A DNA stretch of 25,630 nt. Origin: a virus. The position numbers and the translations under genes are program-made. The DNA lies in IMG/VR virus record IMGVR_UViG_3300042891_000341, positions 1 to 25,630 of that record; one strand, given 5' to 3'. Shown piece by piece: positions 1-25,630 of this stretch. The notes beneath the pieces are model-generated. The model saw only the letters and a list, made by a program, of their open reading frames with translations, was not told the origin of the DNA and made no database searches. Each line of letters opens with the position of its first letter. Position 1 is the first letter of the stretch.

Positions 1-1008
1 ATCATAAATTAACTTACGAACACCTTTAGCTTTACTGTCTTGAGTAGTAGTAAATGCTTGTATTTTCTTTATATGAGGCTTAATAAGCTCATACATAGCG
101 AGTCCTATTCCATTTGTTTCAAGAAATCCTCCCACGACATTCCACTTACGGCACTCAAATATGATATCCTTTCCAAGTTCTTCAAAAGTTCGTCCATTAG
201 CTCTAATAATTTTTTCGACTCTTCCGGATTCGCTTTGGATAGTGCAAACTGTGTAATCGTTGATGACACCCGTATCAATTCCAATATAGTAACGTTCACT
301 TCTTTTTGGTATTCCCCATTCATTTAATATACATATTTGGTCTAAGTTAGTAAATACATCATTTCCACTATCGGTAAATTCAGCTTCATATTCTTGTCTG
401 TAAATGTCATTCGGTAGTGATTTGCGCTGTTCTACCAAAAATTCTTTACTAACATATGGGTTATCGTGACTTACACCTTTGAATGAAATATACGTCACGT
501 TATCTAACGAACCCCGTAAGAAATACTCATAGAACCAGTTCTTACTTTTAGGCGTACTAATAATTAAACATTTTTTGCCTAATGCTGTTAGTGTAGGTAA
601 TATTGCTTCATTTACTGCATCTTGTTTTACATAAGCGGCTTCGTCAATAACCATGTAGTTAAAACTAAAACCTCTAATGGAAGAGGGATTATCTGAACTA
701 AGGTATGTAAGTGTAGATCCATTAATGAATTGAATTGAAAGTTCTGATTTATTGTGATTGGTAATAATTTCATATGCTGCATCTGTTAATTCTTGAAATA
801 CTTTACGGCATTGGGAATATACAGGGGAAATCCAACAACCTTTCATATTTGGTTTACTCAATAGCCAATATAACATTAAATTTTGTGCTAATAATGACTT
901 TCCGAACTGTCGTCCACAACTTACAATTCCAAACTTATGTTCACTGTCAGCGAATCCATCTATAATATGTTGCTGACCCAAATGAGGACTAAACAGTGTT
1001 ACTTCCAT
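1..1008 (-). CDS. terL: Terminase large subunit (partial, C-terminus outside window)
   Basis: This is the ATP-driven DNA packaging motor and nuclease that docks on the portal. From the ATG at 1008 the frame stays open to base 1, giving 336 residues, so the C-terminus is missing. The N-terminal ATPase has a Walker A motif, CGRQFGKS, at residues 31-38, a Walker B motif, YMVIDEAA, at about 118-125, and an STP coupling motif at about 151-153. The nuclease domain starts near residue 240 with GIDTG (catalytic Asp about 245) and has a second acidic motif, LETNG, near 296-300. The third acidic cluster lies beyond the edge. The start overlaps the stop of the small terminase by one base (TAATG), so the two are probably translationally coupled. 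The identification is secure. Confidence 0.96.
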   Translation of the reverse strand, partial: MEVTLFSPHLGQQHIIDGFADSEHKFGIVSCGRQFGKSLLAQNLMLYWLLSKPNMKGCWISPVYSQCRKVFQELTDAAYEIITNHNKSELSIQFINGSTLTYLSSDNPSSIRGFSFNYMVIDEAAYVKQDAVNEAILPTLTALGKKCLIISTPKSKNWFYEYFLRGSLDNVTYISFKGVSHDNPYVSKEFLVEQRKSLPNDIYRQEYEAEFTDSGNDVFTNLDQICILNEWGIPKRSERYYIGIDTGVINDYTVCTIQSESGRVEKIIRANGRTFEELGKDIIFECRKWNVVGGFLETNGIGLAMYELIKPHIKKIQAFTTTQDSKAKGVRKLIYD

Positions 1009-6364: not shown

Positions 6365-9300
6365 TTATACGAAATTCTTAATATTACTTAAGTAAAGATT
6401 TGTTGAATCAAATGATATCAATGTTATTATGTCTTCTCCATTTGCTGTTGCTGTAGGAGTATAAGCACTACCTGATACTTGTTTTATACTTGAGGCAAAT
6501 GATATTGAACCTGAGGCAACTGATGCTTGTTTAACTCGTAAGTTAATTGTTTGTCCTGGTAATATATTAGAAGGATTTACAAATGTATTTGAACCACTTA
6601 CTAATAATAATGTAAAGAAGTTATCTGTTGAACAATCAAGTGATGCTGTATTTGAACTAATTGATAAAGCTTGTACCTCACCTCTTACAGAACCACTAAA
6701 TACAGTAGATTGTAATGTAGATGAACCAGTTACTATTAATGAACCACTAATAATTTGATTTCCTGTAAATGTAGATGAACCAGTTACTATTAATGAACCT
6801 GAAATTATTGCTCCAGTAGTTGTTGTTAAAGAACCTGTAATTACTGTTGAATTTGATAATCTAATAGTAGTACCGTCAAAATTAAAAATACCATTAATGT
6901 TGATTCCATTGGTTCCAGAAGCAGTAACGTTATAACCTATAGCTACAGCATTTACTCCATTAGCCATTGATGTATTACCTAAAGCAACAGCTCGAAGACC
7001 TTGAGCTTGAGTTGCTGTTCCTATAGCTACTGTTCCTCCTCCTAAAGTATAAGCGCCACTGCCCAATGCAATACTGTTTGCTCCACTTGCTGTGGCTGCA
7101 TTTGTAGTTAAGTATGCAGCAGATCTCATAGCTGTACCAGCACCACCACCTAAACCACTAACTAAACCACCTCCTGTAGCTGCAAAACTTGCACTAACTA
7201 CGGTTCCTGTAAATGAGCCAGATACTACTAAATTAGGAACATATACTGTGTCAGTAGCATTGGAAGATATATTTGAACCTCCAATTACAACTGAACGTGC
7301 GTGACTAACTGTATTATTTTGACCACCTATGACTGCACTATTATGAGCACCTGAATTTATAGTATTACCAGTACCACCAAGAATAGTTGTTTGATCTCCT
7401 CCAAGTAAGGTATTGCTATTTCCTCCAAAAATAGTTCCATAAAATGTAGTTCCACTTATTGTGCTATTATTTGAGGCAACAATAGCAGCATTATCAGATC
7501 TAACTGTTGAATTTTTAGCTCCAAATATACTTGCATCACTAATAGATCCTGAAACTGTATTTCCTCGACCACCAAATATCATATTGTGACTAAAGGGTGT
7601 AGTGACTGTATTGGTACCTCCACCAATTATCATACAATTGTCACCAGAATCAATATTTAAAGTATTTTGAGATCCACCAATAATACTAGCTCCTTCAACT
7701 GGAAAAGAGGAAGATACTGAACTAATAGATTGTATTCTTTGGCTTCTACCTCCAACAATAACAGCGTTATTATATGGAGTTCCATTACTAAGAATTGATG
7801 AACCTGAAGAAACTAGAATTCCACCGTCTGGTACTATAGACGAACCAGAAATTACGTTATCTTTACCTGTATTAATTTGACCAAAAAGTAATGTTGAACC
7901 TGTTACGGTCAATGAACCTGTAGCATTTAATGAACCCGTAACATTAGTAATATCACTTAAACTATCACCTAATGTAGTATTACCTTGAACAGTTGCGTTA
8001 CTTGAAACTTTAAAAGGAATATTAACACCTACCTCGCTAGGACTTATTCTTATCGATTCTTTATAACTATTTAAACCAATAGAAAAATCATTAGTAGTAC
8101 TATACAAGTAATCTCTGTAAGCCATTGGTCCTGGATCGTATCCAGTTTCAAAAACCACACGTCCAATATTATTAGTTGCACCAGCCGTTAAAAGAGGAGT
8201 AGTAGATAAAGTTCCACTAATTTGTAATGAACCAGTAATTATAGCTGAACCAGTAAATGGAAAAGCAGGAGAAGATGGAGCATATGATGCTGATAAAGCA
8301 GTAGTAGCAAAACTTGCTGTTCCTGTTAAATTACCTAAGAAACCTGTTGATGCCGATATTTCTGTACCAACAATAGGAGTAGTAAATGTAACATTAGTAC
8401 CATCATCAGTAATAGTTGAATCATTTAAGTGATGACCACCATTACCTTTAGATAATTTATTGTTTGTTAAGTATGTTGGTGATCCTATTGTACTATACTC
8501 AGGACCAAACATTACAACACCAAAATTATCTGGATCAGCTGAACTTGTGTATTCGTAGAACCAGTCGTTAGTTTGACTATCAAACTGTAAAGATGCTGTA
8601 TAATTGTTGGGAGTACCTGATCCACTGTCTTCTACTTTAATACCAGCATATCTTGTAGCATTTGAAGTATTAAGTACAATAAATGAATCTCCAATGTTAA
8701 CTACTGAACCAGTAATTGTTTGTAAATAACCAATACTTGCAGATTGAAAATTAGCAGTTGAAGCTGATATACTTGTAATGTTTAAGTTAGTAGTACTTGG
8801 TAAAAATGAAGCAGTATCAGCTGAAGTAGCATTTGTAGCAAATGATGCAGTTCCTAATAATGAACCTGTAATGCCTCCAGTTACTAATAATGAACCCGTG
8901 ATTATTGTTGGATTTGATAATCTAATAGTAGTTCCATCATATACAAAAATACCGTTGATATTAATTGCATTAGTACCAGATGCTGTAATATTATAACCAA
9001 TAGCTATACAGTTTGTTCCGTTAGCAAATACTGTATTTCCTAAAGCAACACCACGAACACCTTGAACTTGAGTAGCAGTTCCAATAGCTACTGATCCTGC
9101 TCCTAATGTGTAAGCTCCACTACCTAATGCTATACTATTTCCTCCACTTGCTGTTGCTGGAGTAGCAGTCAAGTATGGAGCAGATCTCATAGATGTAGTA
9201 GCACCACTAAGAGTACCAGCAATTAATCCACCACCGGTCATCGCTAAGTTAGCAACACTTGAACTAACAGCAAAACTTGAACTTAAAGCAACACTTGCAG

Positions 9301-10036
9301 AAACAGCTACACTTGCACTTGTTGCTGTTTGTGCTGAAGTCGCGAATGAACTACTTGTAGATGTAAGACTATATGATGACGAAATACTTGTCGCACTATT
9401 TAACGAACTCACCGCGAAACTTGCAAAAGATGCACTTGTCGCTGTAGCAGCTGAAGTAGCAAACGAAGCTGAAGTTGCTGTATCTGCTGTAACACTATAA
9501 GACGCACTTGTAGCGTTTACTACGTTATTAGCTGTAATACTAAATGTCGAACCGTCGCCTTTGCTAAACGTTGTAGTTGCATCTACTATAGACGCTGTTA
9601 CTAACAAACTACCTGTATTAACAGTAACTGCTGAACCAGTGTCTACAGTTAAATTGAATGTTGAACCATCTCCTTTAGTGAAAGTTAAAGTATTAGAACT
9701 AACACTACCAGTAACCATTAAACTACCAGTATTAACAGTAACTGCAGAACCTGTAGCAACTGTAACTGTAAATTGTGAACTGTCTCCTTTTGTAAAAGTA
9801 ATTACGTTGTTAGCAGCTGAAGCTGTAGTCAACAATGAAGCAGTTGATACTGTTGTTCCTGCATTTAAAGCAAACGAAGCAGTTGTAGCAAACGACGATG
9901 ATATAGCTTGTGATGAGGTAATTAGTAAACTACCTGTAATAGTGTTTCCTAAGCCATCTTGCAATTCACTACCACTTATTTGTGTTAGAAACTGATACGA
10001 TTGACTAATGAATAAGGTGGATAAATTTCTTCCCAT
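6365..10036 (-). CDS. Giant tail fibre with YadA-like and GG-x-x-NT repeats, 1223 aa
   Basis: This is a trimeric-fibre-like protein likely to bind the host. The N-terminus (1-60) may anchor to the tail. Residues about 65-170 hold three FTKGDGSTF-type beta repeats. Residues 175-265 are an Ala/Ser-rich heptad-like stalk (ATSASFATSA). A 95-residue YadA-head-like block (SIALGSGA, SVAIG, VALGN, AIGYN) spans 283-377, and a second copy spans 970-1064. Residues about 410-540 form a globular domain (AGIKVEDSGSG, WFYEYTSS). Residues about 720-925 carry a run of GG-x-x-NT turns (IIGGSQNTL, IFGGRGNTV, VIGGQNNTV), probably a beta-roll. The last 110 residues are a globular cap with LPGQTINLRVKQ. No S74-type self-cleaving chaperone is seen. 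The large size and repeats fit a receptor-binding fibre. Confidence 0.85.
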   Translation of the reverse strand: MGRNLSTLFISQSYQFLTQISGSELQDGLGNTITGSLLITSSQAISSSFATTASFALNAGTTVSTASLLTTASAANNVITFTKGDSSQFTVTVATGSAVTVNTGSLMVTGSVSSNTLTFTKGDGSTFNLTVDTGSAVTVNTGSLLVTASIVDATTTFSKGDGSTFSITANNVVNATSASYSVTADTATSASFATSAATATSASFASFAVSSLNSATSISSSYSLTSTSSSFATSAQTATSASVAVSASVALSSSFAVSSSVANLAMTGGGLIAGTLSGATTSMRSAPYLTATPATASGGNSIALGSGAYTLGAGSVAIGTATQVQGVRGVALGNTVFANGTNCIAIGYNITASGTNAININGIFVYDGTTIRLSNPTIITGSLLVTGGITGSLLGTASFATNATSADTASFLPSTTNLNITSISASTANFQSASIGYLQTITGSVVNIGDSFIVLNTSNATRYAGIKVEDSGSGTPNNYTASLQFDSQTNDWFYEYTSSADPDNFGVVMFGPEYSTIGSPTYLTNNKLSKGNGGHHLNDSTITDDGTNVTFTTPIVGTEISASTGFLGNLTGTASFATTALSASYAPSSPAFPFTGSAIITGSLQISGTLSTTPLLTAGATNNIGRVVFETGYDPGPMAYRDYLYSTTNDFSIGLNSYKESIRISPSEVGVNIPFKVSSNATVQGNTTLGDSLSDITNVTGSLNATGSLTVTGSTLLFGQINTGKDNVISGSSIVPDGGILVSSGSSILSNGTPYNNAVIVGGRSQRIQSISSVSSSFPVEGASIIGGSQNTLNIDSGDNCMIIGGGTNTVTTPFSHNMIFGGRGNTVSGSISDASIFGAKNSTVRSDNAAIVASNNSTISGTTFYGTIFGGNSNTLLGGDQTTILGGTGNTINSGAHNSAVIGGQNNTVSHARSVVIGGSNISSNATDTVYVPNLVVSGSFTGTVVSASFAATGGGLVSGLGGGAGTAMRSAAYLTTNAATASGANSIALGSGAYTLGGGTVAIGTATQAQGLRAVALGNTSMANGVNAVAIGYNVTASGTNGININGIFNFDGTTIRLSNSTVITGSLTTTTGAIISGSLIVTGSSTFTGNQIISGSLIVTGSSTLQSTVFSGSVRGEVQALSISSNTASLDCSTDNFFTLLLVSGSNTFVNPSNILPGQTINLRVKQASVASGSISFASSIKQVSGSAYTPTATANGEDIITLISFDSTNLYLSNIKNFV
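6845..7129 (-). repeat. YadA-head-like block, C-terminal copy
   Basis: It encodes fibre residues 970-1064. It aligns without gaps to the block at 8906-9190, and by my hand count about 75 of 95 residues are identical, whereas many third codon positions differ. The copies are therefore an old duplication kept at protein level. Confidence 0.85.
8906..9190 (-). repeat. YadA-head-like block, N-terminal copy
   Basis: It encodes fibre residues 283-377, from the Met-Arg-Ser-Ala start to IRLSNPT. The partner copy is at 6845-7129. Both are followed by an ITGSL-type stalk. Confidence 0.85.
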
Positions 10037-14917: not shown

Positions 14918-16699
14918 TTATTTATAAGTTAAAATATTGTTTAAGAAATAACCTTCAACACTAAAGCCTTTAACTTTACCTGTTTTAACATATTCGTTCC
15001 AAACACGTCTGTTGTCAATTTTATACATTCCATACCATTGTCCTGTAACAGGTAAGAAACCATATAATACTGATTTGTCAGCTTCTGGATCTTTAACAAT
15101 CCAAGTTTCAACTAAATAAGCATCATCAACTCTATGAGCACCATCGTGTTCAATGTTAACTGAATCAACTAATTTATCTTGCATCATTTTATAGGCAATT
15201 TTCTCAATTGTTTCTTTAGAGAAAAATACTTGATATTCTTCACCTGTTTCTTCGTCAATACGAGCAATTAATTTGCCTGGTGTCATAAGTGGACCTACTA
15301 ACATTTGTTTGTCTTGCAATTCAGCAGCAAAATTACGTCTTTTACCTGTTGATGCTTCGTTTACAAAGTTAGGTAAAGCGTTAACGTTAATGTTAAATGC
15401 TTCAGGAGCATAAGCTACTATGGTTTGTAAATGTCCATCCATGTAACTTACGTCGTGAGTCATGCCTGTAATTTCATCAATTTCTAACATTAAATCTTTG
15501 AAATCACTAATTAATAATGATGCTACTTCAACGTCTTCAGGCATTGCTATACCTTCTTCAATTACGTCTTCTTCTAAATCAAAAATATTATCAGCAATTA
15601 AAGCAGCACTACGAATCATACCTTTAGTATCTTCGTCTACTTCCATTGATGTTAAATGTTCAAATGTCGCTATAGCACCTGGACACATGTAGAAATACTC
15701 AGTTGGATAACCAAATACGTCTATGTTCAATGAATCTTTAATTATTTCTTCAATTAGGTCTTCACTAAAATTTTCTTTTTTAGGATGTTTTGTAGGCAAT
15801 AAATCGTAATCTGTTGTGTATTTTTTATTTTGAGATCTGCCTTCTTTTAACAAATATAAGTAAGCATTTACTCTAGCCATAGCCCATTGTTTAGCACCAC
15901 CAGCAGCTGCTACTTCAGGTGAACGAGAAGTATTATAAGCACCTAAACCACGTTGATAAACTGATTTTAGAGCACCTATATTAGCACCATAACCTAATTT
16001 ATCTTTATATTTCTCGTTAAATTCATCTGCTTTATCTTGCAATGTTTTTTCTGTAGCTTTATCTACTTCAGCACCTCTAGATGTAGCGGCTGATCCTTTA
16101 GCTGTACCTTCTCCTTTAGGATTAGGATTTTTAGTGTCACTTTTAGGTGCTTTAGGTGATTCTTTAACACCACCTCTAGGTCCTATTTCAGCATAAATTT
16201 GAGGTTCGTTAGGAGCAATACGAGGTATGTTTGCGTCTAATAACGCATCACCAAATTTACTGAATTCAATACCTGCTTGTCTTAATTTCTTTTCAGCCCA
16301 AGGTAATGCTGCTTCTCCACCCCACAATAAATAACTGATGTAACCACAAGCATTATAATCTTTTCTACGAGTAGCTAATTCATAGTTTCCTTTTTGACGA
16401 ATGAGAAATGCTCTCATGCGTTTAATAGTATCTAATGATAATTTTTCTCCGTTTACTAATTGTTGTGCTCTTACTTTACCTACTTGGGTAGCACATTTCA
16501 TGTTGTTTTTTTCGTTTAATTCAATACCACGTCTAGCTGCATCAACTGCTGCTTGAGGATAATCGTTGTATGTCATTTCTGCCATGTTAACTTTATTGAA
16601 TGCAATAAAATCAGTTTCTATAGCCGGTGACTCAACTAATGCTACAGCATCTACACCTGAGAAAGCGGTATCATCTATTTTTAATTCTACGATTTTCAT
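14918..16699 (-). CDS. XkdF-type prohead protease with two inserted domains, 593 aa
   Basis: The protein cleaves head proteins during maturation. Residues 1-35 (ELKIDDTAFSGVDAVALVESPAIE) are the start of an XkdF/S78-like protease. The rest of the protease is at about 318-593, with VGPLMTPGKLIARID, VFFSKETIEKIA, VNIEHDG (H518, probable catalytic His), GQWYGMYKIDN, and GFSVEG (S580, probable catalytic Ser). Between them lie two extra domains. Residues 42-148 (YNDYPQAAVDAARRGIEL ... GYISYLLWGG) are a helical domain common in phage proteins. Residues about 172-305 open with GPRGGVKESPKAPKSDT and contain SVYQRGLGAYNTSRSPE plus QWAMARVNAYLYLLK, which fits DUF5824. The start shares one base with the tape measure's stop. 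Catalytic residues are inferred, not proven. Confidence 0.85.
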   Translation of the reverse strand: MKIVELKIDDTAFSGVDAVALVESPAIETDFIAFNKVNMAEMTYNDYPQAAVDAARRGIELNEKNNMKCATQVGKVRAQQLVNGEKLSLDTIKRMRAFLIRQKGNYELATRRKDYNACGYISYLLWGGEAALPWAEKKLRQAGIEFSKFGDALLDANIPRIAPNEPQIYAEIGPRGGVKESPKAPKSDTKNPNPKGEGTAKGSAATSRGAEVDKATEKTLQDKADEFNEKYKDKLGYGANIGALKSVYQRGLGAYNTSRSPEVAAAGGAKQWAMARVNAYLYLLKEGRSQNKKYTTDYDLLPTKHPKKENFSEDLIEEIIKDSLNIDVFGYPTEYFYMCPGAIATFEHLTSMEVDEDTKGMIRSAALIADNIFDLEEDVIEEGIAMPEDVEVASLLISDFKDLMLEIDEITGMTHDVSYMDGHLQTIVAYAPEAFNINVNALPNFVNEASTGKRRNFAAELQDKQMLVGPLMTPGKLIARIDEETGEEYQVFFSKETIEKIAYKMMQDKLVDSVNIEHDGAHRVDDAYLVETWIVKDPEADKSVLYGFLPVTGQWYGMYKIDNRRVWNEYVKTGKVKGFSVEGYFLNNILTYK

Positions 16700-18972
16700 T
16701 ATAATTTACGTTTTTGATTTATTTTTTCATTTGCTACTTGAGCATCTGTTACATCACCAGCTAATACATATGTTCTAAAAACAGGTGTAGTAACTCCTGT
16801 TCCACCAAATTGTCCTGTAGCATCTGCTTGAAATTCATTAGGATCACGTTTAGGCGCTAATCTAGGTGGTAATACATTTGTTCCTCCACCACCAAATCCA
16901 CCACCAGAGAATGGATTAAGTGTATTTCCTCCTCCACCTGTTCCACCTACAGAACCAAAACTACCTCCACCTCCTCCACCAGCACTACTTGGACTATCAA
17001 ACTTTTGAGCGGCTATTACTGCTATTCTTCCTAAACCAGCAGCAACAGCAACAGCAGCAGCAATTTGTGCTCTACCTATACTAGTAGGATCACCAGGTAT
17101 AATTTGTGATGTAAATGCTTTTTGTGCTGCTAAATAAGTATCTACTGTAGCACTAGCTATTGCAAATAATTTTTGTTGTTCAAAAGCTTGTTTTCGAGCT
17201 GCTTCATTATCATCATCATAGTTTTGACTCAATGTAGTTAAATCACCAAATAATGATTTTGCTGAACCTAAAACTAAATCTTGTAACTGTTGTTGATATT
17301 GAGCTTGTTTTTCGGTTGTTGATTTTTCAACAGTTAATAATTCTTTAGAACTATTAGTTATAATTTGTAATTTCCTATCTTGAAATGCTTGGAAATCAGC
17401 TGCTTGTTTATCTTGAGCATCTTTAGCTTCTTTACTAAATATACCATTATTTTTAATAGCATCATCAGTTTGTTGTTGAAGTATTTGTTGTCGTTTTAAC
17501 TGTTCCTCTTCTAATAGTTTTACAGTTATATTTACTCTATTACGAATTGTAGTAGCTTGATCTAAATTTTGTTGTTCTAAAGCAGCCTGAGTAGCATTTA
17601 TTGCCTCTGCTATAAAAACATTTATGTCATCAAATTGTTCTTTAGTAGCAACGTTTTGAGTTAAAGCAATTTGTGAAGCTGCATTTTCAATGTTATTTAA
17701 TGTACGAGAATATTGAGCTTCAACTGCTGATAATTGACTTTCTAATTGTTGTCTACGTTCAGCTATAAGTTTTTCAGAAGCAGCTTTATCAATCGCTGCT
17801 AAATCATTATTTAATTTTATTTTAGCACCTTTTTCTAATGCATCATACTTAGCAATAATGTTAGCTTTACTAACTCCTAATCGTTCTGCTTCGGCTAATT
17901 CAGCGTTTTTAGCTATTCTAAAATCTTCTAATGTATTATTGTATTCTATTTGAGCACGTTCTCTTTCAGTAGCAGCTTGATCAATTGCTAATTGCTGTAA
18001 TGCTTCACGTAAGTCATTTTCAATACCAAGAAGAAAATCTGATTTTTCTTTAGCTAATGCTTTAGCATCTGCTGCATCTTTTTCTCTTTGTTTTCTTTTT
18101 ACTTCATTTAACTCATTTCCAATTTCAATTTCAGCATCTGCTGAGGCAAGAGCTAATTTATTTTGTTCGTCAATAAATGCAGCTGTTTGAGTATTTGATT
18201 CATTTCTAAATTCATCAAAAGCTTTAGTTAATGCTTTTTGACTGTCTAATTTAATTTGAACTAATTCAAGATCACTAGCACCTCTTTCACGAGCTGTTTC
18301 TAAATCACTTCTTAATTGTTTTTTATTACTATCAATTATAGCAGCTAATTTTTTTCGTTCAGCATTATCTACTCTTTTAAGTGATAAATCAGCTTCTTTA
18401 GCTGCATCTTCTTGAGCTTTTTTATTGTCTTCAAATGCTTTACTTAATTCGTTAACTGCTACAATAGCTACACCTATTCCAATACCAGCTAAAGCAATGT
18501 TAAATGCACGAGCACTAGCTGCACCTGTAGTAAATGCTTCTGAAATAGTGGCGCCTAAGCCTTTTAATTTAGGACCTATTACGTCAACTGCATCGTTATA
18601 TCCTTCAATTGTTGATTGAATTCCTCCTCCAATAGCGATAATGCCTAATAAATTCTTTTCTACTTTTTCTAAATCTTCACTATTACCACCAAATAAAGTT
18701 AATGCACCTGCTGCTGATTGTATAGCACCAGTCATTCCTTGAAATGCATTTACTAATTTAGCTGCACGTTGATCAGGATCTAAGCCTTTAGTTGCTTCTT
18801 TAAAGTCTTTTATTTCACCTTTAGCTTGTCTTAATCTAACAACTAAATCATCATATTCTTTAGTTCCTGTAGGTGTTAAGTCAAGTTGAGTTTGTATTTC
18901 TCTTATTTCTTGTCTTAAACCAGCTAGACTTCGGGTATCGGTGTTTATTACTACGGTTTGTTCAATAGCCAT
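16699..18972 (-). CDS. Tape measure protein, 757 aa
   Basis: This sets tail length and is ejected into the host. It shows an N-terminal helical region (about 10-65), a hydrophobic stretch with possible membrane helices (about 75-185, including FNIALAGIGIGVAIVAV), and a very long charged coiled-coil core (about 185-600, with EREAR/AEAER-type heptads). A second hydrophobic helix follows (about 640-665), then a glycine-rich segment of roughly 35 residues. The C-terminus, FRTYVLAGDVTDAQVANEK, matches the 'Y-V-x-x-x-D-I-T-x-A-Q' ending of tape measures in phages of Bacteroidota. At about 0.15 nm per residue it would span roughly 110 nm, so a long tail. The gene comes before the head genes, not between tail genes only. 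Confidence 0.88.
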   Translation of the reverse strand: MAIEQTVVINTDTRSLAGLRQEIREIQTQLDLTPTGTKEYDDLVVRLRQAKGEIKDFKEATKGLDPDQRAAKLVNAFQGMTGAIQSAAGALTLFGGNSEDLEKVEKNLLGIIAIGGGIQSTIEGYNDAVDVIGPKLKGLGATISEAFTTGAASARAFNIALAGIGIGVAIVAVNELSKAFEDNKKAQEDAAKEADLSLKRVDNAERKKLAAIIDSNKKQLRSDLETARERGASDLELVQIKLDSQKALTKAFDEFRNESNTQTAAFIDEQNKLALASADAEIEIGNELNEVKRKQREKDAADAKALAKEKSDFLLGIENDLREALQQLAIDQAATERERAQIEYNNTLEDFRIAKNAELAEAERLGVSKANIIAKYDALEKGAKIKLNNDLAAIDKAASEKLIAERRQQLESQLSAVEAQYSRTLNNIENAASQIALTQNVATKEQFDDINVFIAEAINATQAALEQQNLDQATTIRNRVNITVKLLEEEQLKRQQILQQQTDDAIKNNGIFSKEAKDAQDKQAADFQAFQDRKLQIITNSSKELLTVEKSTTEKQAQYQQQLQDLVLGSAKSLFGDLTTLSQNYDDDNEAARKQAFEQQKLFAIASATVDTYLAAQKAFTSQIIPGDPTSIGRAQIAAAVAVAAGLGRIAVIAAQKFDSPSSAGGGGGGSFGSVGGTGGGGNTLNPFSGGGFGGGGTNVLPPRLAPKRDPNEFQADATGQFGGTGVTTPVFRTYVLAGDVTDAQVANEKINQKRKL

Positions 18973-18992
18973 TGTTTATAAATATTTTTTAA

Positions 18993-21900
18993 TTAATACA
19001 TTGAATTCATTGTTGCTATAATTGATGGAATTGCTGGATAAACTCCTGGAGCAGCATTACCAGCGTTTAAGAAAACATCTGTACTGTCAGCAGTCCAAGC
19101 AATTTCATAATAATCACCTGCTGAACCACTAACAAAGAAATTCCAAGCCGCTACTGCTTTATCACTTGAACCTCCACCCATTGTAACAATAGTATTTGAT
19201 TGTGATACATCAGTTCCATTTTTTCTCAACCAGAAATAACTATTGTGTTTTGTTCCTGTTGTTTTATCTAATTGAGCACTAAATTGTAAGTTATAAGCAC
19301 CACCTTGAGACAATGTAAATTGTGAAGATGACACTAATGTAATTCCTCTACTAAAATCTACTGTGTCAAATTCAAATACTGATGCAGTTAAAGCTGCATC
19401 TATTGTTTGATCTGTAGTGTCAAATACAGAAATAAATGACGCTGTTTGAGCAAATTGACTTCCAATATTAACATTAAACGTAGAACCATCACCTTTAGTA
19501 AAAGTTAAATTAGGATTACTATATGATGCTGTAACTATAAATGAACCTGTATTTAATCCTGAACCTGAAAATGGATAACAATCACCATTAATACACAAAC
19601 TTCCAGTAATATCAACCGAACCTGTCATAGTAGCACCGTCTTTAAAGTCAGCAGTACCTTGGTTAATTAAATTACCCGTGTAAACACTACCAGTAGGATC
19701 ACTAGGTACAATATCATTAATTGGATTTATTACAACATTATTTGATGAACCTGAAATTATTCTTGAACCTGAAGGTTGAATTAATACTACTTCATTTGAG
19801 TCAATTATACTAGCACTATTAGCAATTAAAAATACATCATTGTATCCACTAGATACTGTATTGTCATTACCAAAAATACTTACGTTTGAAATATTGTCTT
19901 GTAAAGTATTACCAGCACCAATACTTATTACGTTTTGTTGTGTTTCGTTGTATTTACTGTTACCTAAAACAATTATATTAGGATTAACAACTACTTGTTC
20001 TTGAGTATTCCAAGACACTTCAGTATCATATGCTTCATAACCATCTAAAGCAGCTGCTTGACTTAAAATAAATGGATCTGTTTCAGGTTCATCTGTTTCA
20101 TATACACTATAAAATACAGAACCGTTATCAGTAAATCCATTAATAATAACATCTTTAAATTCAGTAGGTCCTATTCCAGTTGATATTCTTCTTCTACCTG
20201 TATATGGTTGACTACGAGGTAATAATTTAACCAATTCAACTTGAGTTGATTGACGTTGAACTAAATTAGCACCTTGTATTTTATTTACTCTATAATAATG
20301 ACCGTCTATAAAAATCTTATCATTTAAATTAATAAGTTCTATGTCTGATGGATCTAATACAACATTACACATTAATACACGTGCATCTATGTCATATAAT
20401 GAGTTAATATAATATGCCCAATATCTGTTGTATAAACCATCTTGACATCTACCGTTAACAGCTGACTGTTGAAAAGGAACATATCCTAAATTGTTATAAT
20501 GTAAATCAAGACTACTGCTGAATATAGTAGGACTGTCAGTTGTAGGTAATAATGTTCTGTAAAAATTTAAAGCACGAACACCATTATTTTGAGGATCGGC
20601 AATGTAATAATATGTTGAACCTGAAGGTGCATTAAATGAACCTGTAGCTGTACCATACATTTCATTGTTTGGTATAGTTTTTATAGGTGTTTTATGTAGT
20701 AATCTAGGTTTAAATTTAAATGGTTCAACGTATTTACCTGGTTCCTGTTTTACTAACCAAGGTAATACTGTTGTTCCGTTTACATTTTTAGTTGGTATTC
20801 CTTTAACAGGAGTAGCAGCAAAAAAACCACCTATTTGTCTTTCTCCACTTGCTAAGTCACTGTCAGTTTGATAAGTTTGTTCACCATATACTTTACCTGA
20901 ATTATCAAATTGATATTGGTTTAATACATCATCATCTAAATCATCACTAAATCTAAATTTTTTAGGTAATGACTGAACAGGGTGAGTGATTTGAAATTTA
21001 ACACTTCTGTCTACTATATCTGTCCAATCAACTGTATTTCCTAAATTAATCCAGTCGTTGTATGGTTCTATTCTTAATATGTTGAGTCTATTAGGTACAG
21101 GTTCTATTACTAAGTTAAATTTTTCAACTAAACCTTTCATAAAATCAAGTATCTTAATGTCACCAAATACTTTACTTATGTCAACTGTTCCACCTATAGG
21201 ATTTTGAGGTGTAATTACTTTTACATAAACACCATTTTGTCCTGCTGTAACAACAGTTCTTAATTTTTCTAATCCATTGCTACTAGGTGTTTGTAGAGCA
21301 ATAGAAAAATATAAAACGTCACCTGCTATTAAACTAACACTAATATTACCTGTATTGATTACTCCTGATACAGCATTAGGAATAGGTGTAGTACTAGTAT
21401 GAATAGTATTAGTTGTGCTTGGTGAATTTTTAGTAATTTTTAATATAAATTTTCTTCCTTTATTGTTAACAACTAACGGACCAAAGTTAGAAGTTATTAC
21501 ATAAGGTATGTTGAAATTTAAAATATGATTACCAGTATAATCAGCTGTATAATTATCTGTTGCTACATTAAAATTATTACCATTGTTGTAAATAGTAGCT
21601 TGATAATTTAATTGTGTAAAAGTAGCTGTAGTAAAATAACTGTCAATACTTTGTGATACTGTAGCATAAGCATATGAACCTGAGTTTGAGTTGACAAATG
21701 ATAAACCATCTTGATCATCAGGAGTATTTAATAAATACAACTGTTTGAAGAAATCACTGTTAATAAAACTAGAAGTATACTTATAATTTATTGATTTAAA
21801 TATTTCGTCTACAATTGTTTTAGCTTGAACTGCTGGTTTAAATTGACTTACAGATAGTGGTGTAAATGGATTATCCATTTGAAACTGACTACCACCAAAT

Positions 21901-22448
21901 TCAAATCCAGGAGAACCTGCTGTGTTTGGATTAGCACCATAATTAATTAATGGATATAAAATTGAACCACTAAATAACTGATCATTCCACGATTGAGAAA
22001 TACTTGCGTATGTGTAACTATGAGAATATGGAGCCCAAGCTAAATCAGCTATTCCTTTATTTTCAGTTAATATACGAAAATCTACGGTTTCATTTGCTAC
22101 AACACAATTATAAATTATGTCATTGTATTCATCAGTAATAATACTATCAACTCTTAATTTACCTGTAAACACTCCAGCTCCATCAACTAATACTTGACAG
22201 GGCACTGATTTATTTAAGGCAACAGCTGGTGTTGTTCCTAAATCAAATAAATTGTTAAAAAATTGATTGTTTAAGTCATTGCCTGGTAATGTAAAGTTTT
22301 GTGATGAAATTCCAAATACACTTCCTATATCACCTAATTCTATAGCTGATATGTCAAGTAAAAAATCTGGAGTGTCAATTATTTCTAAATCAAACTTTTC
22401 ACCAAAGTCGTTTTGTGCTCGTAATATTACTGAATACTGATTACTCAT
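18993..22448 (-). CDS. Baseplate hub-like tail protein with C1q-like tip, 1151 aa
   Basis: The first 190 residues follow a pattern familiar from large tail proteins of phages of Bacteroidota: FDLEIIDTPDFLLDISAIEL, then a 'SSQNFTLPGNDLNNQFFNNLFD' segment and VLVDGAGVFTGKLRVDSI. The middle (to about 790) is beta-rich and carries 'ILDFMKGLVEKFNLVIEP' (about 435-455), typical of hub/baseplate proteins. After residue 830 the protein becomes fibre-like, with short GNTL/GNDNTV turns (about 830-890) and TGSLCINGDCYPFSG. One LTFTKGDGSTFNV repeat, like those of the 1223-aa fibre, follows near 985. The last 135 residues look like a C1q/TNF-like jelly-roll (GGAYNLQFSAQL, NSYFWLRKNGTDV, AGDYYEIAW). The start shares one base with the previous stop. 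Confidence 0.78.
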   Translation of the reverse strand: MSNQYSVILRAQNDFGEKFDLEIIDTPDFLLDISAIELGDIGSVFGISSQNFTLPGNDLNNQFFNNLFDLGTTPAVALNKSVPCQVLVDGAGVFTGKLRVDSIITDEYNDIIYNCVVANETVDFRILTENKGIADLAWAPYSHSYTYASISQSWNDQLFSGSILYPLINYGANPNTAGSPGFEFGGSQFQMDNPFTPLSVSQFKPAVQAKTIVDEIFKSINYKYTSSFINSDFFKQLYLLNTPDDQDGLSFVNSNSGSYAYATVSQSIDSYFTTATFTQLNYQATIYNNGNNFNVATDNYTADYTGNHILNFNIPYVITSNFGPLVVNNKGRKFILKITKNSPSTTNTIHTSTTPIPNAVSGVINTGNISVSLIAGDVLYFSIALQTPSSNGLEKLRTVVTAGQNGVYVKVITPQNPIGGTVDISKVFGDIKILDFMKGLVEKFNLVIEPVPNRLNILRIEPYNDWINLGNTVDWTDIVDRSVKFQITHPVQSLPKKFRFSDDLDDDVLNQYQFDNSGKVYGEQTYQTDSDLASGERQIGGFFAATPVKGIPTKNVNGTTVLPWLVKQEPGKYVEPFKFKPRLLHKTPIKTIPNNEMYGTATGSFNAPSGSTYYYIADPQNNGVRALNFYRTLLPTTDSPTIFSSSLDLHYNNLGYVPFQQSAVNGRCQDGLYNRYWAYYINSLYDIDARVLMCNVVLDPSDIELINLNDKIFIDGHYYRVNKIQGANLVQRQSTQVELVKLLPRSQPYTGRRRISTGIGPTEFKDVIINGFTDNGSVFYSVYETDEPETDPFILSQAAALDGYEAYDTEVSWNTQEQVVVNPNIIVLGNSKYNETQQNVISIGAGNTLQDNISNVSIFGNDNTVSSGYNDVFLIANSASIIDSNEVVLIQPSGSRIISGSSNNVVINPINDIVPSDPTGSVYTGNLINQGTADFKDGATMTGSVDITGSLCINGDCYPFSGSGLNTGSFIVTASYSNPNLTFTKGDGSTFNVNIGSQFAQTASFISVFDTTDQTIDAALTASVFEFDTVDFSRGITLVSSSQFTLSQGGAYNLQFSAQLDKTTGTKHNSYFWLRKNGTDVSQSNTIVTMGGGSSDKAVAAWNFFVSGSAGDYYEIAWTADSTDVFLNAGNAAPGVYPAIPSIIATMNSMY

Positions 22449-23848
22449 TATCTACTTCTCTTGTTGTTTGCTAATGTATAGTTAACTATGTATTGAAAAT
22501 TCTTTTGTGTTCTTGGATTTGTTTTACTAACAAAATCTGTGTCAAGTAAAATAACAGGAATAAATTCTAATCCAATTTGAACATAAACGTTGGGAGAATA
22601 AAATAATTCACCTAACCAATCAGCTTGTTCTTGTGTTAACCAATCACTGAATACTCTAAAACTTTCATTAATATTAACATAATAACTTGTAGTTCCTCTA
22701 CGTTTTTTATTGTATGGAACTGTATTTGTTGTTGTGTTGTAAGGCACAAATGTTTGTTTATATAAACCTCTTTCTAATGTAGTTGTTTTGTCTTCTTGCA
22801 AAGTAAAATTGAAATAATCCCAAGTACCATAATCATTTAACCAAGCAAATCTTACTCCATCATAACCACAATTAGCGCTTTGGTTATAATAAGTAAATGT
22901 GTCCCAACTAGCACTAACGTTAGGTCCTGAAGTGCCTCGAGGATAAAATTTAACAGTATAATAGTCCCAACTTCCTGTTAAAGTTAAATAATTAAATTCA
23001 GTTAAGTTTTGAGGACCTGCACCTACATACATTAATAAACTACCTGATGTTTGAGTACCTGATGATGTAGTACAAGTATTAATTGTTCCAGGAAATGGAT
23101 TACCAATACTACCTGTTCTAGGACCACCTGATAAATAGTTATTTGTATTATCAAGGTTATCTAGTACACTTTGTTGCACGATACTCGCGCCAGAATACAA
23201 CGTATACTCGACGTAAGCTACATCTTGAGCTAATGTCGTGCTTTGATTTAGGTTGCCGTTTAAAAGCGATATAGTTGCGTAATCTGTTAATTGAACATAT
23301 TGTTCACGTGGTGCATCTGTTAAAGCAACATTATAACTAAAACTACCTGTATTAGGTGTAGGTTCCATTTTAAAGAACGAACTGGTATCCCAGTTAAAAC
23401 TACCGTAGTTAGGATCTAATGTTCCATTTAAAATATAATAAAAAGGAATTGAACCTGTAAATTGAGCACTACCTGTAGCATTACCTATACCTGTATAACT
23501 TGTTACACTACCTGTAGTAGTTGTACCAAATTCTTCACCAAATGCTACTTTGAAAAATTCAGCTGTGTTAGTATTTTTATGGAATATGCTACCTGTTCCT
23601 GTTATGTCTAAAGCATATAAGTCAGGTTCAACATATTGTTTAATGATTCGACCTAAGTTAAATACACCTTTACCTGATGGATTAGGCTGTTGTTTTATTG
23701 TTGTTAAGACATTGTTACAACCATCTCTTAAAACACAAGTATATTGAAATTGAGGTGCTGAAGATGACACTGAAGTTACTTCCCACAACAAATCACTGTT
23801 TGCTAAATTTAATTGTCCTGCTGCTTGCTGTATAGTTATCTGACTCAT
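22448..23848 (-). CDS. Distal tail/baseplate structural protein, 466 aa
   Basis: The protein is beta-rich with many Tyr, Thr and Asn residues. The C-terminal 140 residues carry the run FAWLNDYGTWDYFNF, then RRGTTSYYVNINESF, SDWLTQEQADWLGELFYSPN and FIPVILLDTDF. I know this signature from a structural protein encoded just upstream of the large hub-like protein in phages of Bacteroidota. The N-terminal half (LANSDLLWEVTSVSSSAPQF) resembles a beta-sandwich. It is likely part of the distal tail or baseplate. It overlaps the gp10-like gene by four bases (ATGA) and shares one base with the next start. A CpG-rich patch at about 23175-23285 stands out from the rest of the gene. Confidence 0.68.
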   Translation of the reverse strand: MSQITIQQAAGQLNLANSDLLWEVTSVSSSAPQFQYTCVLRDGCNNVLTTIKQQPNPSGKGVFNLGRIIKQYVEPDLYALDITGTGSIFHKNTNTAEFFKVAFGEEFGTTTTGSVTSYTGIGNATGSAQFTGSIPFYYILNGTLDPNYGSFNWDTSSFFKMEPTPNTGSFSYNVALTDAPREQYVQLTDYATISLLNGNLNQSTTLAQDVAYVEYTLYSGASIVQQSVLDNLDNTNNYLSGGPRTGSIGNPFPGTINTCTTSSGTQTSGSLLMYVGAGPQNLTEFNYLTLTGSWDYYTVKFYPRGTSGPNVSASWDTFTYYNQSANCGYDGVRFAWLNDYGTWDYFNFTLQEDKTTTLERGLYKQTFVPYNTTTNTVPYNKKRRGTTSYYVNINESFRVFSDWLTQEQADWLGELFYSPNVYVQIGLEFIPVILLDTDFVSKTNPRTQKNFQYIVNYTLANNKRSR

Positions 23849-24294
23849 TTTGTTTTAAACATTGTTTCTATTTCTTGTTTTATTGCTTTACCAAATATTC
23901 CACCTAAATCTTTCTTCAATACTTCATCAACAGCAGGTTGAATAAATGGAAATGCTTGTCTTCTTACTTGACCTCGTTTTGCAATTCCACGAGCAATAAC
24001 CCAAGGTAATTGTTTTGCTGATATTCCTTTTCTAGGTGTAATTGCATTTTTAGCTATCCAAAATTGAATTGCTTTAATAGGTGGTTGTTTACCTCCTCTA
24101 CGTTCATGTCCATCATTAACCCATTTACCATATTTTTCCATTGTTATGATAAGCTTATCTCCTTCAACTGTAGCTTGAATTGAATTGCTTAATTTACCTG
24201 TATTATCATTGTTATTACGTTGTAAATTAGCCTTCATTTCAGCAACTATTTGATTGCCTACTTGCTGTAATGCTTGCTGAATTGGAGTTGCCAT
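23845..24294 (-). CDS. HK97 gp10-like neck/tail completion protein, 149 aa
   Basis: The layout fits this family: an N-terminal helix (IQQALQQVGNQIVAEMKANLQ), then NTGKLSNSIQATVEG, a strand, and the marker YGKWVNDGHER followed by a loop with GGKQPPIKAIQFWIA. RQAFPFIQPAVDEVLKK lies near the C-terminus. Members with 'Y...v..Gt' and 'PFl.pA' are neck proteins that link the connector to the tail. The protein is highly basic in its central part. It follows the tail-terminator-like gene with a one-base overlap (TAATG). Confidence 0.78.
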   Translation of the reverse strand: MATPIQQALQQVGNQIVAEMKANLQRNNNDNTGKLSNSIQATVEGDKLIITMEKYGKWVNDGHERRGGKQPPIKAIQFWIAKNAITPRKGISAKQLPWVIARGIAKRGQVRRQAFPFIQPAVDEVLKKDLGGIFGKAIKQEIETMFKTK

Positions 24295-24761
24295 TATAAT
24301 GAAGGAAAGTTACAGAAGTCTAATACACCATAACTATTAAACGTAATATTTGCTTGCCAACCAGCTACTCTATCATTAAACGCTTCGTACAACGGACTAA
24401 TACTATTTAATGTTACGTATTCATCACGTTGTACAGCGCCTAAATTAAAATAAGCAATAATGTCGTATAGATATATTTCTGTTTGTGATTGTAATTTCAA
24501 TACGTCTGTGTCAGTTAATTGTGGAATGTCCATCATATAAAACTCGAAGTTTAAACTGCGAGCACCTGATACACCATTAGCATTTAACACCATACCTGTT
24601 GATTGTAATGGTCTTAAAAATGCAAACGGATACTTTACGTTTTGAAATAAACTGTCTAATCTGTCGATACTTCCCTCACCAAATTGTTTTATTGCTTGGT
24701 GAGCAGTACATGCTGCTTCAAATTGATCAACTACAGATTTGTATGTGGGAAAATCAGCCAT
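24294..24761 (-). CDS. Tail terminator-like protein, 155 aa
   Basis: An N-terminal helix (YKSVVDQFEAACTAHQAIKQ) is followed by a 'YPFAFLRPLQSTG' segment and strands with LNFEFYMMDIPQ. A helix follows (LQSQTEIYLYDIIAYF), then a conserved-looking end, FNDRVAGWQANITFNS, with LDFCNFP. The pattern 'y.f.f.vmD.....n....q..t...l.Di...l ... f.drvaGW...i.i......d.C..P' is one I know from small tail proteins of phages of Bacteroidota that are probably tail terminators or completion factors. Placement between the chaperone-like gene and the gp10-like gene agrees. Confidence 0.68.
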   Translation of the reverse strand: MADFPTYKSVVDQFEAACTAHQAIKQFGEGSIDRLDSLFQNVKYPFAFLRPLQSTGMVLNANGVSGARSLNFEFYMMDIPQLTDTDVLKLQSQTEIYLYDIIAYFNLGAVQRDEYVTLNSISPLYEAFNDRVAGWQANITFNSYGVLDFCNFPSL

Positions 24762-24762
24762 A

Positions 24763-24942
24763 TTATTTTTTCTTTAAAATTTCTTTAAGTTCATGTTCAT
24801 TAATCATAAATGAAGCACATACTCTGTCTACTGGTTTAACTTCTGCAGCTGCAATTACTTGTTTTTCAAAATCAGTAAGTTCTACTTTAACAGCTTTGAC
24901 TTTATATGATTTTAAAATTTCGTTATTTTCTAAATTATCCAT
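24763..24942 (-). CDS. Small hypothetical protein, 59 aa
   Basis: From the ATG at 24942, 59 codons reach TAA at 24763-24765. The protein is mostly helical and charged: ILKSYKVKAVKVELTDFEKQ at about residues 9-28, then RVCASFMINEHELKEILKKK at the end. No family is recognised. The ATG lies one base after the stop of the frameshifted chaperone product (TAACATG), and its own stop is one base before the next start (TAATATG). It is therefore almost certainly translated in series with both neighbours. A small tail-assembly accessory is a guess from position. Confidence 0.68.
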   Translation of the reverse strand: MDNLENNEILKSYKVKAVKVELTDFEKQVIAAAEVKPVDRVCASFMINEHELKEILKKK

Positions 24943-24943
24943 G

Positions 24944-25630
24944 TTATTTTAATTTAATTTGTTTTTGTTTTTGTTGTCTTTCTAATTCTATTTCTGTTTG
25001 TAACGATAAGTAATTAAATACAAATATTACATTTAAATCGGTTAAACACTTTTCTCCATTTATTGATAAGATATTGGTTTCTGCAAGTTCATAGAGTGTA
25101 AGAAACCAACCGTAGTGGTTAGCAATCGATGTTTTGTCTTGCTCATCATCTTCTTCGCTTTCTCTATTTGGATTTTGTGGGAAGATAACAGAATATCGCT
25201 TGATAACATTGTCTTTGTACCTAAAAAAAAAGCCATAGCTCCTAATGCTATGTCTAAAGGAAAATTATCAAATTCAGGTGATTTAATTTTACGTTTATCT
25301 GTGTTGTATTCTTCTACGTCGTAATAATCAAATACATTTTCAACTTCATATTTTAAAGCCTTAATAGTTGACTTATAAATAAATTTAGCTGTGTTAATTT
25401 CATTACGAGTAACTGGACGATACAATAAAGCAAGTATATCATTTAAGTTGCGATCTACATCTTTAATTAAGTTGTCTAAATCAACATATTCACCTAATGT
25501 CATTTTAGACATGTTTCTGAAACCATACAATTGTCCTTTCCATTCAACAATAGGATGAAATGTTTGACTATTTTTGTTAATTATATCAGTAATACGTTTA
25601 TAAACATCAATAATAGAACTAATACTCCAC
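24944..25630 (-). CDS. Tail assembly chaperone-like protein joined by a -1 frameshift (partial)
   Basis: The N-terminus lies outside the window; the frame is open at 25630. The first frame contains FHPIVEWKGQLYGFRNMSKM, MTLGEYVDLDNLIKD and LALLYRPVT, then PLDIALGAMAFF, a pattern I know from a protein that precedes tail genes in phages of Bacteroidota. At a T9 run (25231-25223) this frame goes on for only about 54 unconvincing residues to TAA at 25060-25062. A -1 shift gives RYKDNVIKRYSVIF, an acidic linker, then YGWFLTLYELAETNILSING, VIFVFNYLSLQTEIELERQQ and TAA at 24944-24946. The -1 ending matches the family's usual C-terminus and sits one base before the next ATG. The shift may be programmed or a homopolymer error. 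The window holds 228 residues of the fused product. Confidence 0.76.
25222..25231 (-). other. U_UUU_UUA slippery site for -1 frameshift
   Basis: On the minus strand the codons are GCT TTT TTT TTA, so the heptamer U UUU UUA (25228-25222) is in the correct register for tandem -1 slippage. It is the same heptamer used by the HIV-1 gag-pol shift. Slippage would make the ribosome read AGG TAC next. I see only a weak hairpin downstream (TATC-AAGC-GATA), no strong pseudoknot. A one-base assembly deletion in this T9 run would give the same picture. Confidence 0.7.

Follow-up and report, generated by a model that had tools for sequence, protein, structure and literature searches.

The window, by which we mean the whole 25,630-base stretch of phage DNA analysed here, carries a minus-strand gene at its right end that is truncated 5' by the end of the contig and that, judging by its relatives, yields a short and a long protein through a change of frame at a run of nine T's (T9; Table 1). 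We consider it almost certain that this frame transition is programmed, whichever machine slips, and we infer, with reasonable though limited confidence, that a tail assembly chaperone gene is most likely involved and that the transition arises through slippage of RNA polymerase. About 50 codons of the N-domain, estimated from a near-identical homologue (L012), lie past the contig end. Past T9 the -1 frame reads RYKDNVIKRYSVIF...HYGWFLTLYELAETNILSINGEKCLTDLNVIFVFNYLSLQ... and ends in a TAA (24946-24944) one base ahead of the ATG of the next gene, which starts at 24942, whereas the 0-frame stop would leave a gap of 117 bases, as the sequence-only reading of this DNA had correctly described.

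Table 1. Coordinates of the frameshift gene, its parts and the neighbouring genes in the window.
Feature	Position	Strand	Remarks
Source record	25,630 bases		IMG/VR phage record, linear
T9 run, site of the frame transition	25223..25231	(-)	Coding strand GCT TTT TTT TTA GGT
In-phase heptamer U_UUU_UUU within T9	25225..25231	(-)	Common to three phase classes; candidate ribosomal shift site
0-frame N-domain, through FFL	25222..25629	(-)	Reads ...LDIALGAMAFFL
0-frame tail (short product)	25060..25221	(-)	Ends with the stop at 25060; shares bases with the -1 frame
-1-frame C-terminal domain of the long product, including TAA	24944..25222	(-)	Conserved as protein in relatives
Next gene, 59 aa	24763..24942	(-)	Short gene in the same position in relatives
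155-aa gene	24294..24761	(-)	Conserved neighbour of the frameshift gene in relatives
HK97 gp10-like tail completion / neck protein	23845..24294	(-)	phrog_5 E 2.7e-11, PF04883 E 1.7e-5; conserved neighbour
Likely tail length tape measure protein	16699..18972	(-)	phrog_1506 E 8.5e-12 and other tape-measure profiles
Large terminase	1..1008	(-)	C-terminus past the contig end

The earlier claim that the 0-frame protein up to T9 and the -1-frame protein past it are both coding was borne out by their conservation as protein in relatives. The two parts lay in different frames, both protein-conserved, in all ten relatives of a first-round scan; a second-round profile scan found T9 with a -1 step in 80/80 loci, again with both frames protein-conserved; and a third scan, with divergent members as queries, found T9 in 60/60 loci and the -1 step in 59 of them, the last locus having no scorable C part and the 60 loci partly overlapping the earlier sets. 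Because both frames are protein-conserved across 10/10, 80/80 and 59/60 loci, the pattern is far beyond chance. Altogether the run was exactly T9 in 142/142 related loci (two P12024-type loci included; 80 groups below 90% identity and 20 groups below 50%), and every scorable step was -1. T9-bearing relatives include the isolated Nonlabens phages P12024S/L.

These counts bear on the suggestion that the assembly had lost one T. Homopolymers are error-prone and replication slippage can alter their length, and an assembly or sequencing error, or a phase-variable run that changes length in the DNA, might be imagined; nevertheless, nine T's in every locus, drawn from many separate assemblies and from isolate genomes, with no T8 or T10 allele among the 142, led us to rule out the assembly error and make either form of this explanation extremely improbable. 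A programmed -1 shift with two products, probably in a tail chaperone, is supported across relatives, but the accompanying idea that this phage had newly acquired it is not, as the frameshift is, on these comparisons, ancestral to the whole clade. No relative of the T9 family or of the 11b-type family described below was found in the bacterial genomes searched. Judged by portal protein, Nonlabens phage P12024S is the closest isolate, followed by Bacteroides phages, and Nonlabens belongs to the Flavobacteriaceae; by nearest-isolate inference, the phage group probably infects Bacteroidota.

Since the 0-frame stop falls inside the -1 ORF, coupling between two separate genes is conceivable, with translation of the -1 part beginning at its own start codon or through re-initiation. 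However, in 44 of the 47 representatives the -1 frame opens with no ATG, GTG or TTG nearby, on which ground a free-standing -1 ORF was ruled out, and in about 20 of the 47 a -1-frame stop abuts T9 directly, so that the -1 frame is reached via a shift within the run. The 0-frame stop, moreover, is located 53-67 codons into the -1 domain, and we regard an arrangement of two genes as having hardly any likelihood. The alignments indicate instead that both frames are coding, that the step lies within T9, and that the length of nine is kept regardless of codon phase.

That the 0-frame tail past T9 is non-coding, as had first been supposed, is doubtful. It is open for 53-67 codons in 47/47 representatives, compared with a mean of 24 when synonymous -1-frame codons are reshuffled; over the wider set it measures 24 codons in the P12024S lineage and more than 100 in three other lineages. 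Amino-acid constraint on the tail is suggestive in close pairs (0.12 vs 0.21 differences at the -1-frame third position) and absent among distant pairs. The short product may thus have a genuine C-terminus encoded in a dual-coding stretch, although constraint on the amino acids of this tail is weak.

In most relatives inspected, the frameshift gene lies directly 3' of the large terminase gene and is followed by the short gene, the 155-aa gene, the HK97 gp10-like gene and the tail genes. In the window it belongs to the tail module and lies upstream of the likely tape measure gene, with five genes between them, and the product of the latter is presumed to be the chaperone's partner. The two ends of the window (1 and 25630) fall in the large terminase gene and the frameshift gene, which are adjacent in relatives. 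Both ends have matches in L012, about 1.3 kb apart, so that the genome is probably about 27 kb in size, nearly complete, and circularly permuted in the record.

In 45/46 representatives (e.g. L013, L022 and L077) the start codon of the frameshift gene is preceded, at a distance of 2-14 bases (mostly 4-6), by the 7-mer TATTTAT. These positions are read from relatives because the window's own start is cut off. The 7-mer also occurs in the window at 18978-18984 (-), where 5 bases separate it from the likely tape measure gene downstream. Its role could be that of a -10-like promoter element, with a near-leaderless mRNA as the result, or of a translation signal. Elsewhere in the window, a likely GIY-YIG homing endonuclease gene lies at 2242-2679 (-; phrog_5123, E 2.3e-5), and two genes at 6365-10036 (-) and 18993-22448 (-) encode proteins of 1223 and 1151 aa, both with Ser/Thr-rich TGSLLVTGS-like stretches and the former with repeated SIALGSGAYTLG-like motifs, which are perhaps fibre or adhesin parts.

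The target of selection at the site was examined by counting third-position changes on the tree over 183 codon columns and by pooling codon usage. The median third position had changed 14 times, and the only three columns with no change were the third bases within the run. At the codon just ahead of the two Phe codons, 8 amino-acid changes (Ala, Gly, Ser, Asn) were counted and none of the third T, and the last codon of the run, nearly always Leu, starts with TT in 47/47 main-clade representatives, where 35% of the Leu codons in these genes are CTN. All nine positions of the run are conserved, and the base that follows is A, G or C. The run occurs in three codon registers, namely 1-3-3-2 (window: GCT TTT TTT TTA), 2-3-3-1 (NTT TTT TTT TAT, in the clade of isolate P12024S) and 3-3-3 (TTT TTT TTT ACG, in another clade), all of which sum to nine and have in common a core of seven T's around the two Phe codons (U_UUU_UUU). 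The two T's beyond this core lie downstream, one per side, or upstream depending on the clade, and parsimony assigns only two independent changes of phase. The heptamer U_UUU_UUA named in the sequence-only reading is thus not the unit under selection, for the base after T9 varies, the T preceding the heptamer is invariant in a codon whose amino acid changes, and T9 stands in other codon phases in sister lineages.

A programmed -1 ribosomal frameshift of the lambda G/GT kind would leave the mRNA faithful, and a small share of ribosomes would shift by a tandem slip at U_UUU_UUU (25231-25225) and perhaps at U_UUU_UUA (25228-25222) as well. Several observations speak for it: the direction is -1 throughout, U_UUU_UUU demands an invariant T ahead of two Phe codons, there is precedent in lambda and many phages (PMC5009743), and the in-phase X_XXY_YYZ heptamer expected of a ribosomal site is present in all relatives, as U_UUU_UUU in all phase classes, which weighs against a reading by polymerase only. 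In contrast, constraint limited to that heptamer was not found. A tandem slip requires only seven T's, also in registers 2-3-3-1 and 3-3-3, whereas every lineage has kept two extra T's outside the heptamer, on different sides by clade (both phases 0 and 1 among them), and always to a total of nine. A conserved A/T homopolymer of about nine or more bases at the transition, with a length maintained regardless of phase (here through three phases and two independent changes), is what would be expected of a site of transcriptional slippage. We consider the ribosomal shift possible, at appreciably less than even probability.

On the coding strand, T runs of at least eight other than T9 are depleted. 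Apart from T9, that strand of the window has no A or T run of at least eight, against about 7.4 expected under a first-order Markov model. In 77 related loci (374 kb) there are 79 T runs of at least nine, 77 of them being the T9 site, with 7.7 expected from composition, and the A runs of at least nine number 9 against 21.6 expected. Two further results count against a ribosomal shift, namely that no excess of downstream RNA folding was detected in 47 representatives (nested folding; mean z +0.2 and +0.4) and that a Shine-Dalgarno-like GGAG upstream is not conserved, its Gly codon alternating between GGA and GGT. A downstream stimulatory stem-loop or pseudoknot is common, not universal, in -1 ribosomal frameshifting, and because the lambda site is efficient without a strong stimulator, the lack of folding is weak evidence.

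Based on the independence of T9 from phase, the depletion of other runs and the lack of excess folding, we favoured RNA-polymerase slippage over a ribosomal -1 shift. In a study of 108 bacterial genomes, selection against coding A/T runs began at nine bases in a large proportion, and IS elements as well as Thermus dnaX make use of 9A/9T sites for transcriptional slippage (PMC1088944). The present comparison does not finally separate polymerase from ribosome, since T9 holds a heptamer in any phase. Counting against the polymerase are the small number of independent phase changes, the fact that the chaperone frameshifts known to us are all ribosomal, and the six-A heptamer of locus L224 described below.

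If RNA polymerase slips on the nine T's, a fraction of the mRNAs would gain one U (U10). The unslipped U9 mRNA would then give the short product, consisting of the N-domain and the 0-frame tail, and the U10 mRNA the long product, in which the N-domain is fused to the -1-frame domain. The short form would presumably be common and the long form rarer, and together they would cover the tape measure protein and bring in the tail tube, in the chaperone role played by lambda gpG/gpGT.

A comparable homopolymer was found in the family typified by the chaperone of Flavobacterium phage 11b, which is apparently unrelated in sequence to the window protein and has a weak match to phrog_441 (tail assembly chaperone, E 4.5e-6). 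Members of this family carry A9 in 62/68 scored loci and A10 in 5/68, always with a step of -1. Taking both families together, we lean narrowly towards the view that Bacteroidota phages rely on slipping RNA polymerase, at A/T runs about nine bases long, to make both chaperone forms. The runs (T9, and A9/A10 of the 11b type) belong to two families between which no sequence relationship was detected, and transcription rather than translation would then set the ratio of the forms. The distant 11b-type member L224 carries a classic A_AAA_AAG on six A's with a -1 step where its relatives have A9 or A10, and a switch of mechanism inside one family is a possible explanation. The 11b chaperone homologue of Cellulophaga phage phi10:1 (L095, 36889) has A8 and a +1 relation of its parts; it was set aside as ambiguous because the annotated ATG overlaps the A8.

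The expectation that chaperones of Bacteroidota phages are usually encoded in one frame is consistent with a different family, the B40-8/P2559Y type (phrog_8914), for which most of the listed records align in one piece, mostly in one frame. Croceibacter phage P2559S (L097, 14747; A8, +1 step) was discounted as support for slippage, given that its family is mostly one frame and that L109, a 96% relative of P2559S, has A9 and a -1 step. Either locus would form a single open frame if its run were A10 or A7; the two runs may be sequencing errors or a run that slippage makes tolerable. In Flavobacterium phage 6H (L098, 10048-10351), an unannotated gap past gp10 holds a -1-frame domain, and no homopolymer was seen at the border between the two; the chaperone-like gp10 of this phage is a structural match to the window model.

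From its size, two-product design and neighbourhood, the window protein can with fair confidence be called a tail assembly chaperone like lambda gpG/gpGT. Pfam, PHROG and PDB sequence searches with the window protein matched no named family, and one member of the -1 domain gave a weak match to phrog_4963 (tail assembly chaperone, E 0.015). A structural model of the N-part of the L012 homologue (pLDDT 91) matched P12024S gp38 and many unnamed phage proteins with a probability of 1.00, and fold matches to chaperone-labelled phage proteins were weak (E 0.02 and 0.5). Against PDB folds, no Foldseek match reached E 0.001, and the alignments from VIA-align 2 stayed at Z 2.6 or less over 48-62 residues, results that carry little weight as to the fold. 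The -1 domain modelled alone reached a pLDDT of 59 and was left out.

Ribosomal recoding has its textbook example in the lambda G/GT frameshift. Should polymerase slippage operate in a large phage group, the two mechanisms would be interchangeable for one function, as with dnaX, and gene finding based solely on models of ribosomal heptamers would overlook genes of this kind; the P12024S record has a plain ORF of unknown function. The conserved T9 points to a built-in slip, perhaps by the polymerase, rather than to a sequencing error.

The gpG/gpGT chaperones of lambda are the reference for a translational frameshift conserved in tail genes (Xu, Hendrix and Duda 2004, as cited in PMC3711429 and PMC5009743). 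The window gene resembles them in having, by comparison with relatives, a short and a long product with a common N-terminus joined by a conserved frame transition, in the -1 step, in its tail-gene neighbourhood, and in a long form of about 280 aa. It differs in its conserved nine-base homopolymer in place of the G/A heptamer, in an overlapping 0-frame tail of 53-67 codons, in adjoining the terminase gene several genes upstream of the tape measure gene, and in showing no significant sequence match to named chaperones.

Among phages of Bacteroidota, the nearest counterpart is gp38 of Nonlabens phage P12024S with the ORF that follows it (phrog_32199 and phrog_38404, both of 'unknown function'), which has the same place after the large terminase, the model match given above, a T9 and a -1 step; it differs in phase (2-3-3-1 vs 1-3-3-2 here), in its 24-codon 0-frame tail and in being annotated as a plain 175-aa ORF. 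The 11b chaperone (PHG11b_38) is alike in its nine-base A/T homopolymer and -1 step, and differs in that the run is of A's, the 0-frame tail is about 10 codons long, and no sequence relationship to the window protein was detected. The B40-8/P2559Y chaperones come from phages of the same host phylum, some of their records being annotated as tail assembly chaperones, but they are mostly in one frame and showed no relationship in sequence to the window protein. Transcriptional slippage for a phage tail chaperone was not reported in the open-access papers searched. Known sites of transcriptional slippage include the 9A/9T runs of bacterial IS elements, the A9 of Thermus thermophilus dnaX and Shigella T3SS genes (PMC1088944, PMC5009743), and the T9 site is like them in that the homopolymer is nine bases long, the frame changes there, the downstream frame is conserved, and such runs are avoided elsewhere.
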